Assembly: GCF_019393635.1 (NCBI RefSeq) | Contig: NC_057866.1 | Coordinates: 231,645,359 to 231,709,358 of the forward strand | Source: Dromiciops gliroides | Taxonomy: Eukaryota; Chordata; Mammalia; Microbiotheria; Microbiotheriidae | Direction of reading: 5' to 3' | Length of the DNA: 64,000 bases | Part shown: positions 5,471 to 58,087 of the stretch, in pieces | Numbering within the stretch: position 1 is the stretch's first letter | How the letters are laid out: the number at the start of each line of letters is the position of its first letter | The notes under the pieces: model-generated | Told to the model about the DNA's origin: nothing | The model's input: the letters and a program-made list of their open reading frames with translations, nothing else | Databases searched by the model: none | Program-made: the position numbers and the translations under genes

Positions 5471-5704
5471 ATTTCTTACCTTCTCTTCTCATTTTATATG
5501 TAAAGAAAACATTATAGGAAAGAGAAGATAGGCGATAAGGTCAAGCATAGGATTAAAAGCAAGGGCTGGGTAGTCTGATCAGAGAAGAGTCATGCTAGGT
5601 TGTTGACTGTATCATCCTGCAAGGATAATCAGCTATGTGGCAATGCAAAACTGATTGCTAGGGAAGAATAGCTCTACAACTTAACAACTAGTATTGTATG
5701 AAAG

Positions 5705-5860: not shown

Positions 5861-7199
5861 TTTTCCAGCTGCACACCTGTGATATTTATCTGTGATAAAA
5901 TCCAATATGTTGCACCATAGAGTTTGTTATTCTTTCAAATGGATGGCATATTTTAATTCAGCAGCAAGCTTTCATGACATATGAAAGTCCCTCCTCACTG
6001 AACTCTTAATGGTTTCGTTCAACACAAATAAAGAATCTCCTACTTCCTTGGTGTTTAGGGAACAGCCTGCTTGAAATTAGTCTGTACAAAGAGATCGACA
6101 CAGGTCTTTTAAATTAAACTAAACCACCATCCAAATTGCCAACAGAAGACTTGGAATAAAAAGACTCAGAAGTCAATACTAATGAAAAAAACATGGCATG
6201 TGCAAGTGAGGTAGACTGCATTATTTGGTTCAGCCATCTGCAATAGCAGACATCCCTGCCTTCATTTATGATGATAACAAAGAATAAAGTTGTAGGGTAG
6301 AAACCAACCCCTCCAAAGTTGAGAGCCTTTTTTTTTAGCGACATCAACTCAGCTGGAGAGAGTCTTGGTGGTGACTGATGGAGACAAAACTGTCAGCTGT
6401 GTCTTTCGAAGAATGAATTGTCAATCTCATCTGAGAAGACAAAATTGTCAGCTATGTCTCTCGATGAGCAAAATTATTGGTTGCGTCCCTGGAAGGTGGA
6501 AAGTCCTTGGGTGTAAGGAAAATTGTCAGATGCATATTTTCAAGACAAGATTGTTGGCCATGTCAGCTAAATAACAGGGTACTATTATTTCACTACTGAA
6601 CTGTGAAATTTACTGTTTTTATCCCTTTCACCATTTGAATTGATGAAGTGAACTTCACCAAAATTGGCATGTGCGTTGGTACTTAGCAAGGACAGATGTG
6701 CCACATGTGCCTTTGTGTTATGGCTGGGAAGACAGATGCATATGAGCAACCAACCAGATTGGACACAATAAAATGTCCCATGTGTTAATGGAAAAACAGC
6801 CTCTCTGGATTTCCCTAATATTCCCCTTCAATTCAAACTGAATGGCAGCCAGGTCCGCAGGAGGCAGGATGTCAGAGAGAGTGGGATGATCATTACAGGA
6901 ACACTATATTTAATAATATGGATAGGTGATGGGTCTATTCCAAGCCAATCATTCACTTCTGGACCACTGACTTCACTGATCTGGTCTTCTAGCATATGCA
7001 GTCAGAGTGACCTATTGTTGACAAGGGTGAGGAGTGTAACCAGATGATTCCACCTTAGGCTTCCCTATATAGCAGCAGGGGCTTATTATGCCTTAATAAT
7101 AAGACATTCCAAATCATATTACTCAAATAAGGTCAACCGAATGGAACTGAATGGCTGGCAGGGGCTGAATTTGTTTCTTAAATATGTACGCTGAGAAGT
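5861..7199. other. Intergenic, no gene
   Basis: A small imperfect local repeat (GACAAAACTGTCAGCTGTGTC / GACAAAATTGTCAGCTATGTC and similar) lies at about 6380-6560. No credible coding sequence. Confidence 0.5.
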
Positions 7200-9287: not shown

Positions 9288-9836
9288 TGTCCTGTAAAAT
9301 TAAATGTGGTTACCTTATTTCTGTCCCAAGTTTGGGGAAAATTAGCTGGGGTTTGTAATATATTTGCTACTTATAAATTAGAAGCTTTAGCACCAGTTTT
9401 AGGGCATTAAGCATTCATTAAAGCATAGCAAGTATTAGTAAAAAGAGAATACCTGGGTCAGAGAGTTAAGAAAAGGCTTATCTAGCCTAGAGCTCCAGCC
9501 TGGCCTGCTTCTGCCTCCAAGTCCTCCACCATGAGCCTGTCCAAGAGTCAAACTGCTAGTGGAAGCTCTCTGCATCTGGAGGAGGGGCGGTCCTTATATA
9601 CTCCTTCAAGCTAATTGGCTAGCATCACCCAAATCCATTGGTTCACTGGACTTGAGGGTGGTCCCATGTTGAGGTCAGAGTTTACACCCTCTAAGAACAT
9701 GCCCTCTCGAGGGCCAGGCAGGTGTGGTTTTAATTGAATTAACTTTGAGTGAGTTAATCAGCCCAATCAATCTTAATGCAATCAATCCCCTCTAGCTGGG
9801 GCCTTTGGGTGTCCCAAAACCCATTATTTTCTCACA
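9288..9836 (-). mobile_element. Endogenous retrovirus solo LTR
   Basis: On the minus strand the element starts TGTGAGAAAATAATG at 9836 and ends in a CA near 9288-9293. It contains, in order, two CCAAT boxes (9637-9641, 9614-9618) and TATATAA (9594-9600), with a GC-box-like GGGGCGG on the other strand at 9584-9590, just after the TATA box on the element's own strand. This is U3 promoter architecture. Flanks CTTCC (9283-9287) and CTTCA (9837-9841) may be a 5-bp target duplication with one change. No gag, pol or env sequence lies beside it, so it is a solo LTR. A related LTR lies at 63651. Confidence 0.65.
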
Positions 9837-22107: not shown

Positions 22108-22401
22108 GGGCGCTAGGTGGCTCAGTGAATAGAGCACAGGGTTTGTAATCAGGAAGACCTGAATTCAAATATGGCCTCAGACATGATGTGACTCTGGGCA
22201 AGTCACTTTACCTCAGTTCCTCAATTGTAAAATGGACACACACTGGAGAAGAAAATGGCAAACCGCTATGGTATCTCTGCCAAGAAAACCCTATGGAAAG
22301 GTCCATGGGGTCATGAAGGGTCAGACATGACATCATCATCGTCATCATCGTCGTCATCGTCATCATCGTCGTCATCGTCATCATCGTCATCATCAACAAC
22401 A
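22108..22401 (+). mobile_element. Mar1-type SINE with (TCA/TCG)n tail
   Basis: GGCGCTAGGTGGCTCAGTG head, GCCAAGAAAACCCTATGG and GGGTCAGACATGACATC end. The tail is a 70-bp array of TCA and TCG triplets (22330-22401) in an alternating pattern. Confidence 0.85.
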
Positions 22402-46450: not shown

Positions 46451-47907
46451 TCATATATATCTGTTATAAGGCCCTGTGACCCTTGTAAAGGCATATGGAG
46501 ATGTAGTTACTGTAGAGTTTGTGGTGACAGACATTGTCCTTTGGGCAAGAGACTTGATGAAGCGTAAATAGGTTGGTTCTGAAGGTTCATGAGGCTCAAC
46601 AGGCTCCCGCTTTGTTTTTTTACCATAGGTTTTCTGAGGCACATAATCCGGGCCATACTTTTCACATTCTTCCTCCTTCTCCCGTGCTTTCTCTGCCATT
46701 TTGGCTTCCCATAGAGCCAGACCGTGTTTTGGTTCATTCATGCTCTTGTGCTGGTAGAACACAAGGGATATCCTGGTAGGGTGGTTTCTGTTGGGGTTCT
46801 TTAAGGGGGTGGTTGCATGGAGCTCACGTTTTGCACATTCAATGAGAATTGACCCATGAGTTGGGGCTACTGCCACTCCACCTATATCGGGATCTAGAAA
46901 GCTGTGCTCACTGTCCGACCAGACGTCATCGTTGTCCTCTGGGGCAGAGGCTGGACCCTGGATTGGTGCATGAGGCTGCTTTTCCATATGGTTAGCATCA
47001 TTTAATTTGTTTAAGCCTCCTTGAACAGGAGTAGTCCTATCATGGTTAAAACCTGGAAGCATCTTAGACAATCCATTAGCTGTGTGAGAAAGAATCTCAC
47101 GTTCTTTGTTTGGGAGATGGAAGGAGTGAGAAGGGCTACTGAATATACCGGAAGCAGCATGGTAGTCATGGACTAAGTGGGGAGGTGGGTGATGTTCACC
47201 ATTTTTATTCATAGATGTATAGTCCAAGTTTGGATTGTTCAGATTGGGTGGTAATCTTGAAGCAGATTCCATGAAGTGGCCATCCATATCATGCATGGAA
47301 TAGGGAGGAAAAGACCCCATATGGTGTACATTAGGTCTAAGGGTACAGCTACTATAAGCATCCACCTGCATATTTTGGTTTCCATAATTCAAGTACTTGG
47401 GACCAAAACTCTGGCTATTTCCAAACTTCTGTTGGTATAGTGTATGAATAGGTGGGAGATTTAGCTTAGATAGAGGGTCTTGGCTCTGATACCTGTATAG
47501 ATCCATCGACTGAGACTGGGAAGGATAGGAACCTACATAGGCTGAACAGTTGTCCATAGGCATGTTTCCATTGCATTGGTAAGATGGATATTGATTATTT
47601 TGATTCAGAGACCCTGCATAGGGATTCATGGGATTGGAAGAATTCAAATAAGAGCCTGCAGCCTGGGATGAGGTGGTATAGAGATTTATAGGGTTGGCCG
47701 CACTATAAAGGTCAGATGGGTGGGAAGAGCTGGTATAAGGATTAACTGGGTTGGGTCGCCTCATATACAGATTCGGGGGGGCTGAAGTTGCATAAGCATT
47801 GACAGAAGTTGACTGAGGATTATTTGTGAGGGGATGCTGTTGTATTGGCTGTTGTTGCTGCTGCTGGGGCTGCTGCTGTTGCATCGGTCCTGAAAGTCGC
47901 AAAAGAT
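46451..47907 (-). CDS. TET2: TET2 terminal coding exon 11 (insert plus C-terminal catalytic half)
   Basis: The exon begins after CTACTTACAG (AG at 47908-47909) and ends at TGA 46451-46453. It supplies two bases of a shared Asp codon and then 484 codons. It starts LLRLSGP and ends GPYNRYI, the TET2 C-terminus. A Gln-rich run lies near the start (47830-47885), followed by a Ser/Asn/Pro/Tyr-rich disordered region with repeated NPYxxS-like units. The catalytic part resumes near [15 protein letters not shown]. The His of ELHATTP at 46817-46819 matches human H1881 (third Fe ligand). The Arg of HPTRIS at 46772-46774 matches R1896 (2-oxoglutarate binding). The Tyr of LVFYQHK at 46754-46756 matches Y1902 (stacks on the cytosine). 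All are intact, so the enzyme looks functional. The open frame starting at 47902 is an artefact of a TTG; the real start of the exon is the splice acceptor. Confidence 0.98.
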
Positions 47908-48010
47908 CTGTAAGTAGGAGAGAGGAGACAAAAAAGGGTCAATGAATTTAAATGTTACTTTATGAATACTAAATGAAAACTTAAACTTGTGTGAGAACCA
48001 CAGTCTAGAC

Positions 48011-48233
48011 CAATGGTGTCAAACTCAAATAGAAAGAAACAGGACCCACTAAACCATACTTAAGAATCCCCATGGGCTACATATTGACTTAGTTTTAAAA
48101 TTTAATATTATCTATGTTTTATTGTATTTTCATTTATCTTATTATTTCCCAATTACATTTTAATTTGGTTTAAGCCACACTCAATAGGGTTTTGGTGGCA
48201 TGCTGCCCATAGGTGCCATCTTTGACACTTCTG
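48011..48233. mobile_element. hAT-type MITE
   Basis: Terminal inverted repeats CAATGGTGTCAAA and TTTGACACTTCTG. Flanking 8-bp duplication GTCTAGAC (48003-48010) and GTCCAGAC (48234-48241), the length typical of hAT elements. No transposase. Confidence 0.8.
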
Positions 48234-48274
48234 GTCCAGACCAGTAACCCACACAACAGGAACTGTGTCTAAGG

Positions 48275-48492
48275 AAGGGATCCTTAACCTCAGGTTCATG
48301 GACTCCATTTTTCAAGGGGTCTGTGAACTTGGATGGAAACAAAAATTAGAACTATATTCACTGTAACTGGTTTCCCTTGTAATGTTATGCATTTTATTTT
48401 ATGCATTTAAAAATATTATCCTGAGAGGGGATCTAGAGTTTTCACCAGACTGCCAAAGGAGTCCAAGACACCCAAAAGGTTAAGATGTTCTG
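48275..48492. mobile_element. hAT/Charlie-like MITE
   Basis: Ends GGGATCCTTAACCT and AAAGGTTAAGATGTTCTG are imperfect inverted repeats. Possible 8-bp flanks GTCTAAGG and ATTTAAGG (6 of 8 match). A related element is at 61701. Confidence 0.65.
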
Positions 48493-48930
48493 ATTTAAGG
48501 GGATAATTGGATACCTTGTTATCATGCAGGTGGTCAAAGGATTAGAAATAAGAATGGTAAATCTATCACCACAGCACATCTTGGAAAATGGATCAGAAGG
48601 TGAACTTTGAAAACATCAATAGAACCTTACTGATACTTTGCATTTGTTCATCATCCATCAGTCAATGATCAATAACCAGATAATTGTTTACCCTTCACTA
48701 ACTCCCACAGACTTTAGCAGGAATTTTGCTTCCTTGTAACTAGATTTTTTTAGGTAGAAGAGCATGTTATGAAATTTAATTGGGAGGAGGGATGTTAATA
48801 TAATTATACATTGTACTCTGGGGACAAAAGGAATACCCTCAAAGCCACAGTATCTTAATTGATTGCTATTTTTTTTAGAATTTTGGGGTTCAATATAATA
48901 ATGAGATCAATGATTGCTCATGGCTTGTGA

Positions 48931-48990
48931 AATCAGCATCATGACATCATACAGTCACAGCTTATACTTTTCATTTTAAAATTGTAATTA
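48931..48990 (+). repeat. Left arm of 60-bp inverted repeat (probable donor)
   Basis: Matches the reverse complement of 49740-49799 at 57 of 60 positions. It lies in otherwise unique sequence. Confidence 0.9.
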
Positions 48991-49520
48991 AACTTCACTG
49001 TGTTCTTTCCCCATCTCCAACTTAACACTAATATTGTGAGATGGGTGCTGTAGTGGAAAGAAAGAACTCTAGATCTGAGAGAAGTCCTAGTTCTATCACT
49101 AGTTCTCCAAACCTCCATTTCATAAGGTGTTTCTGCTTTTTCTCAACTCAGAGGGTTCTGAAATTCTCAAATAACCTTAGATACATGAAGTCAATTTGTA
49201 AACTTTATATCCCTATCTAGAAATCAAGTATTGTTAAATAGAACTAATAAGAGAGTTAGTGTGCATCCAAAGAGGGGTAGAAAAAAGATCCATGGTGTCT
49301 CTACTTTTGTGCTGCAAATACCAGGGCCTTCAACTTTTTCATTAAAAAGTTATTTTTTATTTGAAAATAATTAGTCTGTAGGGTAATAAAGCAACACAAA
49401 ACATGACATTGAGTACTCTGGTGATGTTATAAGGAGAAAAAAAGAAATCACCTTTATTTTGGATGTCACATCAGGTGATCTTATTTCCAGTGGCATAATC
49501 CCTATAGTTGTAGTGGAGAA

Positions 49521-49837
49521 GGAGCAGCTAGGTAGTACAATGGATAAAGTGCTGGGCCTGGAGTCAGGAAGATTCAGCTTCCTGAGTTCAAATCTTATCT
49601 CAGACACTAGGGGTCACTTGTGTGACTCTGGGCAAGTCACTGAGCCCTTTTTGCCTCTGTTTCCTCATATGTAAAATGAACTGGAGAAGGAAATGGAAAA
49701 CTACTCCAGGATCTTTGCCAAGAAGGACACAATGAAGAATAATTACAATTTTAAAAAGAAAAGTATAAGCTGTGACTGTATGAAGTCATGATACTGATTG
49801 GACATGATTGAAAAATGATTGAACAACAACAACATAT
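49521..49837 (+). mobile_element. Mar1-type SINE interrupted by an inverted copy
   Basis: GAGCAGCTAGGTAGTACAATG head, GCCTCTGTTTCCTCATATG and GCCAAGAAGGACACAATG, then foreign sequence at 49740-49799, then TTGGACATGATTGAAAAATG to the ACAACAACAAC end. Confidence 0.85.
49740..49799 (-). repeat. Right arm of 60-bp inverted repeat, inside a SINE
   Basis: Replaces the segment of the SINE that normally reads GGGGTCACAAAGAG. See the left arm at 48931-48990. Confidence 0.9.
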
Positions 49838-50269
49838 TAAAGTAAACTCTGTTTTTTAATTGAAGGTGGTGATGATTGGCACCTCACCATCCACAATCTC
49901 TAATTGGCCTTCTCTATAAGGTCATAGATTTAGAACTGAAAGGCAACACAAAGAAAGTTTCTTACACTAGAAAGGCAAATCCTACTTTCTTAATGAGCTT
50001 TGGGGGAAGGAAAATAACCTGTGCTTATATTTGAAACTCTCACATTGTAAGGGAAACTTTCAGAAACCCTTACTTCCTTTTCATGACTAAACTTTAAAAA
50101 AGAATTAGAGGACAGTTGCTATAAAAAGCAAGTCTTTAGTACTCAACTAAAAGAGGTAAAGGAAGAAACTGAAGTTAGACCAGCCAATAAATATTTATGT
50201 TAAACTCTTGTTATCATAAGACAAATCATCTGGTCTCCTTTCTGGTAAGACTAAGAACAAGAGTATCAG

Positions 50270-50515
50270 TGTGAGTGGTGTATATGGTGTATATTTGGTG
50301 ATATCCACTGGATTTCAAGAAGAGGAGCAAACACCCTACTGCTTCTGAGATTTTCTTCTTGTCTTAATCCAGCAAAAGAAAGGGAGAAGAAGGGGAGCAT
50401 CTATGATTTGCCATTATTTCTATGTTTTTTGTCACTGGCTGACTGGGCCAATAAGACATAATAATTGATTAAAACTGATGTTGGTGACATTGTCAGGAAG
50501 GAAAACACATAGTAT
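50270..50515. repeat. Diverged direct repeat, copy A
   Basis: Shares GGATTTCAAGAA, CCAGCAAAAG, GGGAGAAGAA, CCATTATTTCT and GATGTTGGTGACATTG in the same order with 52431-52740. Confidence 0.7.
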
Positions 50516-50734
50516 CCTCTTCCTACATTTTTGTGTGCCCCATTAGGACAAAATTCATGCCTACAATTCTGTTTCCTACTGTCAAGTATAGTAAACATTT
50601 CCCAAGAAATGTCTAAATCTAAAGAGACAAAACTGAAAAAATAATATTTTTGTCATGGGCAAACATTAAGGATCCACAGTTATATGCTAACAGTCAAAGC
50701 CACAAATTTATATAGAGACAGGAAAGCATATTGG

Positions 50735-51115
50735 ATTTGGAGTCAGAGATATTTATGTGATGCAACAGATAGAATGTTAGATTTGGAATCAGGAAGATGA
50801 GTTCAAATCCAACCCGGGTAAGTAATTTAACCTCTGTTTGCCTTATTTTCCTAAACTCTAAAATAGGATAATAATACCTACCTGCTAGGTTTGTTGTGAG
50901 GAGAAAATAAGATAATGTTTATAAAGCATGTTGCAAACTTTAAAGCATTATTTATTATTGTGGTTATTATTTATTAAGTGTTGGGGCTCTACTATTTATT
51001 TCTTGTGAAATTTGGAGTAAGTCACTTCACTTCCCTGTCCCTCAATTTCTTCATTTGTAAAATAAGAGAGTTGAAGTAGATGATCCCTACGGTCCCTCCC
51101 TATGATTGTACAAAC
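50735..51115 (+). mobile_element. MIR-like SINEs (two in tandem)
   Basis: TTGGAATCAGGAAGATGAG, ACCTACCTGCTAGGTTTG; then CAATTTCTTCATTTGTAAAA and GTTGAAGTAGATGATCCC. Confidence 0.65.
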
Positions 51116-51549
51116 ATAATAATCAGACACAAGGACACATTCTATCCATTCTACCTTCCCCTGTTACTTCTAAATAGATGTTACTGAGGCAAATAAGATA
51201 ACTGGATTTTTTTTTAAAGCTTCATCTATATAAGTTCCATGTTTGTAAGGTTCATCACAATAGATGAATGCTTGTTTTCATAACAATGGTGGGTAGTCAT
51301 TCTGGTGCTTGAGATGAGATCTAAATGAGATCTAAAATGATGGCCTTGGTCACAAGTTGTGGTTGAGGGCCTATACTTACATTGATTTGACCTAGACTAC
51401 ACACCCAGGTGACAGTTGTGGTTTTCTGGCACTGATAGGCCCTATGACTACTTCTATAGCCACATTTAAAGAGAAATTTACTTCACCACAGGGAAGCACC
51501 TGAGCCAATGGGCCATTGTGACTTTCCTACTAACTGAATACTCCTTGGC

Positions 51550-52440
51550 TGGAGCCTCTTCCTTCTCCTGCTTCCTTTCTTACTGTAGATATTCCCTAAG
51601 GTTCAAATCTTGCTTCCCTGATTCACCTGCTCTAGGATTATCTTATAACCTCAATTATTTCTTCATATCATCTAAACTCTAGTGCCCATATCTCCAAATG
51701 CTTAGAAACTCTCTACAGTTGAATATCCTTCAGTCACCTTAAACTCGACATGTCCAAAACATGCTGTTCTCCCTCCACCCCCAACTTCCTTGTTTTCTTT
51801 CAATGATGTCATCGTTCTTACAGTTAGCTAGGCTCAAAACCTCACTGCCATCTTTAACTCTTCCTTCTTTGTTTTCTATAGGTTGTCCCCAGATTCTGTT
51901 GATTTTTCCATGGGGCATGTCTCATTTATCCCTCATCAATTATCTGTGGGACCATTCCAAGACAGGCTATAAATTAAATTATTTCTCTAACCACTCCTTT
52001 ATCCTCACCATGGATTGGTACTTCTCAAACTCAGTCATATACACCATCATATTAATCTATAAACACAGCAATATGGTCCCTGCTTATATTTTCTACCTTA
52101 TCTATTACAATTACCCGGCATGATGTTTTATTCCAGTCATATTACTTATTGACTGTCTTTTGTATCATGGCCCCTTTCCAGAGTTTATTGATTTGCCTTA
52201 CCTGAACTTTCCATTTCCCCCTGACCTTTCCTGCAATGATCTAAGTCCTATCCCAGCCTTAGAAGCCCAAGAACTTCATTTAATGGAACTTCCCCAGACT
52301 ATTACAGCCCACGGTGATTCCCCGCACAACCTAATACATCATGAAGATAATGAACTTTGCTTCCAAGTCAAGACAAACATTACACTGAGGCTTTGGCAGG
52401 TTACTAAATACTGAAAAGTCCCATATTAACAGTTACCTAT
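51550..52440 (+). mobile_element. L2-type LINE fragment, sense, diverged
   Basis: TTAAACTCGACATGTCCAAA is a hallmark phrase of the L2 open frame (LKLNMSKT). CACTGCCATCTTTAACTCTT and CTTCATTTAATGGAACTTCC fit further along. Open frames at 51761-52414 are remnants of it. A terminal piece lies at 52745-52930. Confidence 0.5.
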
Positions 52441-54225: not shown

Positions 54226-54596
54226 TAGAAGAACTTCAGATGAATGTGAAAGATTCTTTGGTTGTTTCTTTCTCATTCTCCCCAGCCTGGATTTAGTCTT
54301 CATAACTACTGGAGAAAATGATCTTGAAGATTACTAGTGATTTCCTAATGGCCAAATGCAACGGTCTTTTCCCATTTTGCCATTTGTGCCCTTCATTTTT
54401 ATGTAGACTGTTTCTGGTCCCCATGAAAGGCCATTCAAACGGAAATGCCCAATGACTGAGCCCTACTATATCTCTGCGAATTGTGCCATGGGAGATAAGA
54501 TCAGCAGATGTTCCATTCAACATCAACAATTCTGTACTCTTTCCTATGTCCTTCCCACCCAACATAAACACCTTCAGTACCTTGAAGTGAGCTTAC

Positions 54597-54957
54597 CTGC
54601 CAACTGTTTAGCATGGTTTGCACTCTCGGAATTCGCCTGCTTTTGACGTCCAGAAGCTGACTTCTCTTTTTCATTCTTATTTGAGTTGTTCTCCAAGGAG
54701 GAGAGCCTTTCAGCTACAGCTTTCTTGGTTTCTAGTTTCCTCTGCCGGCAGGTCTTGGCAGGCTCCGCCAGCATCCTAACTTTGCGCCGAAAGGAGCTAA
54801 GAACCTGAATGGCTCCATTCCTCTTTTTTTCCTCCTGGGCTTCCACACTGCCAAACTCATCCACATTAGAGACTTTATACAAAGGCAGAACATGAAGCTG
54901 CTCATCCTCAGGGGTTCTACCAACCTCCCGGTTGTCTTCTCTCGTAAGTGTGCAAAC
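54597..54957 (-). CDS. TET2: TET2 coding exon 10 (dioxygenase core to start of disordered insert)
   Basis: This is a 361-nt exon of 120 codons plus one base. The acceptor is ...CTGTTAG (AG at 54958-54959) and the donor is GGCAG followed by GTAAGC at 54596. It begins in frame with [11 protein letters not shown], directly continuing the exon 9 peptide. It includes [14 protein letters not shown] and [15 protein letters not shown], which are TET2-specific rather than TET1 or TET3. The second half is basic and low in complexity ([20 protein letters not shown]). It leads into the long unstructured insert that splits the double-stranded beta-helix in TET enzymes. The last base G joins AT of exon 11 to give GAT (Asp). 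By my recollection human exon 10 is 355 nt, so this copy is two codons longer, within the low-complexity end. The open frame running past 54597 is intron read-through. Confidence 0.97.
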
Positions 54958-57140: not shown

Positions 57141-58087
57141 CCCCTGAATGACCCCATTGAAAATCCTTACATTTACTGACTATTGCTTTCATATATCCAT
57201 TCCCATCATCTCAACTAATTTTAGCATCAGATTCACATTCTTCCCCTATACTCGGTTTTCTACCATTATCCCTGTATATATTTCCACTTCCATATCTATG
57301 TTTATCATATCGATTCTTTAGCTTCATAGTTCCTCAATTTCTTACACTTAGTTTTCTACCACCACCCTTATATATTTCCTTACTTTCACATACATGTTGA
57401 TGAAATAGATTCTGTAGCCTCATAATCCCTCAATTTCTTAGTCCCCAAAGACTCAGTCTCTACTCAACATCAGTCACGCAACAAGGCAATGCGGTGCTCC
57501 TAAGATTTATGGCCTTATACTTCATTTTGTCTCCCCTTAACAGGTGACTTTGCCTCCTACTATATTGAGGAAGTACAAATTCCTTAATATCCCTTCCCTA
57601 CCGTACCACTATCTCTGTTCTTTCACCATTCTGCTTCATCCATCTGTGCCCCTAAACCCTTCCCTTTGGAAACCTGCTCCCCTCAATTACTTTTCCCCTT
57701 CGCTTGCCCCTTCCTTTCTCTTTCCAAATATGTGTAGATCTTCCATATCTTGAAAAAAAAACCTATCACCTAACTCCTTTCTTTTTTAGCCAAACTTTTT
57801 AAATGAATATTATACATTCATTGCTTTCCTCATTCTCTGCAACCTGGATTTGGGCTTCATAACTATCTAAATAATGCTCTTGTTCATCATTAGTGACTTC
57901 TTAACTGACAAATTCATTGATCTTTTCACAGTTCACTCTCTGGGAATTAGCATTGTTTGCCTTCTTGAATCTCTTCTCTTGGTTTCTAAGAGACTGGGTG
58001 ATCTTAGTTTCACTGTTTTGATGACTGTTTCCTTTTTTTCTTCATTGGTCCCTCTTTCTCTTTCTTCCTTCATAGGGTATATTCTTT

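Follow-up and report, generated by a model that had tools for sequence, protein, structure and literature searches.

How did a short piece of intronic DNA come to lie twice in TET2, in opposite orientations and about 0.7 kb apart, with one of the two pieces inside a SINE? A sequence-only reading of the window (the whole stretch of 64,000 nucleotides analysed here) had attributed this inverted repeat to a strand switch during replication. The analysis described below indicates that it very probably arose as a one-off germ-line templated inverted insertion, a term that here covers a route by a replication fork and a route by break repair alike.

The repeat is located between two open frames on the minus strand. 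The frame containing the last TET2 coding exon (46454..47938) has the Tet_JBP domain and corresponds to chain residues 363-462 of TET2 crystal structures. The frame containing the preceding coding exon (54577..54957) corresponds to chain residues 269-355 of TET2 structures, and alone it gave no Pfam match. These assignments bear out the placement of the repeat in TET2. The intron is presumably intron 10, which fits the 11 exons of the human gene. Since TET2 is on the minus strand, the interrupted SINE is antisense to it.

Inverted repeat and its copy number

A search within the window gives an inverted match of 77 bases between 48931-49007 and 49723-49799, with 90.9% identity and an E value of ~1e-26. 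The left arm, the putative donor (48931..49007, plus strand; inner edge at 49003-49007), is embedded in otherwise low-copy DNA. The right arm, the putative inverted copy, occupies 49723..49799 on the minus strand (left edge at 49723-49727, right edge at 49799), and the spacer of 715 bases (49008..49722) holds the 5' part of the SINE. A repeat finder reports the same structure as 82 bases at 89% identity, with the arms 715 bases apart. A chance match is excluded as the source of the arms by their longest perfect run of 26 bases, together with the E value. The 60-base inverted match described earlier is thus real, and its core and coordinates are right; the copied stretch itself is longer, about 73-77 bases. 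Among direct repeats of at least 18 bases in 48000-51000 there is one weak 21-base pair, and in this region no additional direct copies were found. An Rfam scan of 47000-52000 returned no match at gathering thresholds, which rules out a known structured RNA family at the arms, and a search against phages with the left arm as query gave no match.

The genome of the window itself (3.3 Gb, 17 contigs) was searched for further copies by a method that skips words very common in the genome; as a control, a SINE query around the patch still yielded 1866 candidates. With very common words skipped, a query made of the right arm's 60-base core finds two places, namely the two arms, and a longer query that extends the left arm by about 50 bases to either side likewise finds just itself and the right arm. 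In a 264-kb sample, composed of the window and 20 stretches of 10 kb taken at round coordinates from contigs 1-5, the segment 48780-49159 matches nothing elsewhere except the right arm. The sequence-only reading had asked for a genome search to exclude a dispersed repeat and had held that many genome-wide copies would overturn its account; the two matches speak against a dispersed family, and no such multitude was encountered. Several copies in the genome, as for a dispersed repeat or a DNA transposon, are thus not seen under this search; the patch has a nearby template and, by the same search, no other genomic copies, as a templated, MMBIR-like insertion in the wide sense should.

Interrupted SINE and its sibling copies

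The right arm is surrounded by a tRNA-derived SINE on the plus strand, which is probably of the Mar1 family. Its 5' part (49520..49722) starts at about 49520, and its 3' tail (GGACATGATTG...AACAACAACAAC) resumes past the patch at 49800..49835. A target-site duplication of the SINE was sought between 49471-49525 and 49819-49880, where only one 6-base match was found, so that the element's own ends are left without confirmation by a duplication. Mar1a, Mar1b, Mar1c and MAR1 are listed among marsupial SINEs in PMC3403934.

The head and the conserved tail of this SINE are common to many copies. From the 264-kb sample, 23 copies (taken from 148 BLAST lines, reaching query base 195 or beyond, with the TET2 copy omitted) were aligned, and none carries the arm; in two of them the same tail is interrupted by short inserts, one of 8 and one of 10 bases. 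Genome-wide, 40 of the 1866 candidates were scored, giving 41 rows: one for the TET2 copy, one for the donor and 38 for other SINE places, one of which contributes a further row for a second piece. Alignments at these 38 places end at query 63-66, the left junction, in 32 cases and at 73-83 in the remaining six, and among them (40 of 1866 candidates scored) no alignment spans the patch. Among the 38, seven were inspected at the sequence level, and the arm is in none. Altogether 61 distinct other copies were examined (23 aligned and 38 scored), all devoid of the patch. A SINE subfamily carrying the arm is therefore rejected (0/23 aligned, 0/38 scored, 0/7 read); the earlier account had named a subfamily that always carries it as fatal to its claim, and its view that the right arm interrupts the SINE is sustained by the same copies. 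One scored copy, at C5:86172915 (L025), matches both sides of the patch. It has 24 bases between the aligned pieces, compared with 73 in the TET2 copy, and 26 bases between GCCAAGAA and GGACATG.

Two of the seven inspected copies have an unusual feature in or near the tail. The Mar1-like copy at C1:669812740-669813100 (L028) runs into an apparent second SINE just past its tail, and in the one at C2:664121110-664121470 (L029) an apparent second SINE lies inside the tail stretch corresponding to the patch of the TET2 copy; the second-SINE sequence in both is GCAGC(T/C)AG(G/A)TGGC(G/A)CAGTGGAT. In the window, the Mar1-like copy at 22112-22286, with about 30 bases beyond, has a 10-base insert in the tail stretch that is replaced by the patch in the TET2 copy.

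Breakpoints and replaced bases

The locus was partitioned into three pieces: SINE, reverse complement of the left arm, and SINE. Three best solutions tie, placing the copied stretch at 49723/49725-49799 and the template at 48931-49005/49007, and in the best partition the arms agree at 68 of 75 bases, as a reverse-complement copy of a nearby sequence should in a template switch. At the patch, 26-28 bases of the SINE consensus are lost, or 26 by the form of L025, the one scored genome copy that matches both sides; the replacement of about 15 bp given previously is accordingly corrected to about 26. The left junction has two shared bases, AA. The right junction shares none with the consensus but would share TT with a SINE of the GAGTT form seen in L025, and an AAGAAGG variant of the SINE (L031) would shift the left edge of the patch to 49727. 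Microhomology thus amounts to two bases on the left and, by the SINE form assumed, zero to two on the right, too few to exceed chance. SINE bases are lost rather than duplicated at the patch, and neither an added poly(A) nor a duplication is present at its ends in the sequence.

Direction and age of the copy

Because the right arm breaks a known element and the DNA around the left arm is continuous and low-copy, the simplest reading makes the right arm the copy. The SINE copies that are free of the patch likewise point to the right arm as new and the left arm as donor, in agreement with the earlier reading; both this direction and the timing considered below would be read from paralogous SINE copies rather than from an orthologous empty site.

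Between the arms, 7 of 75 sites are mismatched, or 9.3% (95% interval 3.8-18.3%), which corresponds to a change of about 4.7% per arm if it is equal in both (half-divergence interval 1.9-9.1%). Against its consensus the SINE has mismatches at 24 of 197 sites, or 12.2% (interval 8.0-17.6%), and 18 other SINE copies in the same alignment range from 7.6 to 18.3%. Were patch and SINE of equal age, the arm divergence would be expected to be twice the SINE rate, and seven or fewer mismatches in 75 would then have a probability of about 0.0008, or 0.01 with a SINE rate of 10%. Because the arms have diverged less than expected under equal age, the patch is probably younger than the SINE, at roughly two fifths of its age, an estimate with wide, overlapping intervals that supposes the arms to have exchanged no sequence by conversion. 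The event could seem too young if constraint was unequal or conversion took place later.

Mechanism and alternatives

In the proposed course of events, the SINE would already be resident, a 3' end of DNA within its tail would shift to a template about 0.7 kb away, and about 75 bases would be synthesised in reverse orientation from the left arm. The 3' end would then return to the SINE about 26 bases beyond its point of departure; about 26 SINE bases would thereby be replaced, and the locus would grow by about 49. The order of the switch points would be 3-2-1-4, or 1-4-3-2 when seen from the other side. Which arm was copied from which, in what order the steps took place and which polymerase route was used are all inferred. 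The event would be an ordinary one, and its mechanism of a known kind. The earlier reading had invoked replication template switching, serial in kind and without transposon ends. A templated local inverted copy stands, and no transposon signature was found. Replication as the route is not singled out, as break repair predicts the same structure, and serial switching is not indicated because one excursion suffices.

The main rival concerns this route and not the templated copying, and its probability is contained in that of the templated insertion as a whole. A double-strand break in the SINE may have been resected, after which the 3' end folded back and copied about 75 bases, and end joining captured it with a loss of about 26. 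Such a course has somewhat less than an even chance. The loss of about 26 bases and the zero to two shared end bases fit end joining, and according to PMC11724301 foldback insertions in yeast span 2 to about 150 bp and share a median of 2 bp where the end was captured. On the other hand, the local foldbacks in those yeast data relied on inverted microhomology across a 41-nt spacer, and most were shorter than 14 bp, and a loop of 0.7 kb would presumably need long resection. Since foldback break repair with end joining predicts the same anatomy, the two routes are inseparable at this locus; between a stalled fork of the FoSTeS/MMBIR type and foldback repair the odds are nearly equal, the fork being slightly preferred.

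Explanations that dispense with templated copying of DNA fare much worse. The arms might be the terminal inverted repeats of an element, or else two members of a dispersed family, whether a transposon or a variant SINE subfamily, an idea that draws on the 171 of 175 inverted pairs within 5 kb that are multi-copy in the sample; with two genome matches each for the core and the flanked left arm, the arm in 0/61 other SINE copies (40 of 1866 candidates scored genome-wide), and arms that frame no element but a spacer ending with most of a SINE, it is very improbable. RNA-derived pieces are known to be captured at breaks, and the left arm, lying in a TET2 intron, would be transcribed with TET2, so that a reverse-transcribed piece of the pre-mRNA could have been captured at a break in the SINE. 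This is hardly to be expected here, for the patch ends bear no added poly(A) or duplication and direct copying explains a near-neighbour template without RNA. The inverted pair might also have been retained for an RNA role, as a pre-mRNA hairpin acting on splicing or editing. The arms had been said to be able to form a hairpin in the TET2 pre-mRNA, and folding of the minus-strand RNA of 48900-49830 predicts just this, with the arms paired at -294.8 kcal/mol and a z score of -10.3 (none of 20 shuffles as low). A hairpin so predicted follows from the inverted repeat and is no evidence of a role: inverted pairs of this length fold so whenever they lie close together, there are 186 pairs within 5 kb in the 264-kb sample, and the arms mismatch at 7 of 75 sites. 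Retention for such a role is most unlikely, and no function is indicated for the patch or the hairpin.

Comparison with known systems

The templated insertion favoured here resembles several described phenomena. In the catalogue of short-range template switches in great apes, a template within 100 nt was required, and the gold-standard events have a median length of 12 and a maximum of 128; the patterns 3-2-1-4 and 1-4-3-2 are in the majority and produce single inverted repeats, as presented in PMC7954356. The TET2 event shares with them the reverse-complement copy, the single inverted-repeat product and the switch order, but its copy of about 75 bases greatly exceeds that median, and with a template 715 bases away it falls outside the 100-nt range given there and is alike only in the way it works. 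Human MMB-TI templated insertions, which are present as germline variants, were sought with templates within 100 bp according to PMC8421209. Both kinds are inverted insertions close to their template, although in TET2 the template is farther, the event is old, and the junction homology is 0-2 against an average of 3.7 reported there for tumour junctions. With yeast foldback inverted insertions the TET2 patch has in common a nearby inverted copy, one captured end and few shared bases, whereas those described in PMC11724301 were mostly below 14 bp, with a short loop, and arose at experimental breaks. RNA hairpins generated by template switching likewise owe their hairpin-capable inverted repeats to this process, but the account in PMC8794818 concerns hairpin stems of RNA sequences, while the TET2 arms are 715 apart, intronic and with no RNA role indicated.

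Class 2 templated sequence insertion polymorphisms consist of a patch without poly(A) or target-site duplication, the templates of which are usually distant. The TET2 patch likewise lacks both, but it is local and inverted. For a marsupial, no report of such an event was found in the open-licence literature, including by searching directed at marsupials and SINEs. As the catalogues of PMC7954356 and PMC8421209, so far as they are described there, stop at 100 bases, a mid-distance class may be uncounted. Template-switch insertions of 50-100 bases from 0.1-1 kb might even be a common, uncounted class in marsupial genomes, though this is rather doubtful. Old SINE copies, the intact form of which is known from their siblings, would allow such events to be given a direction and a date within a single genome. 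An interrupted SINE reveals the sequence before the event and also serves as a relative clock, which would make mid-distance switching surveyable in one genome without outgroups. The value of the TET2 event is that of a worked case, at a distance of 715 bases that lies beyond the 100-base range set out in PMC7954356 and PMC8421209.

Frequency of local inverted pairs

The 186 inverted pairs lying within 5 kb in the 264-kb sample are nearly all between multi-copy sequences. In a filtered count, 175 inverted pairs pass, of which 171 are multi-copy and four low-copy; a pair with few copies in 264 kb may still have others elsewhere in the genome, and the window, chosen for the TET2 pair, itself yields no rate. 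Among same-strand pairs in the sample, 3 of 167 are low-copy. The class of low-copy local inverted pairs may thus not be rare, with the TET2 pair as its clearest member in the sample.

The TET2 pair is the strongest of the four. The other low-copy pairs are found at L008:5064-5118 / 5530-5587 (86%), L006:5169-5232 / 6186-6246 (81%) and L006:9104-9219 / 9384-9503 (76%), two being in the same stretch, and they may stem from events of this class or from inverted-repeat elements of old age. The window also contains a low-copy head-to-tail duplication at 57247-57440, in which two adjoining copies of about 98 bases are 79% identical.
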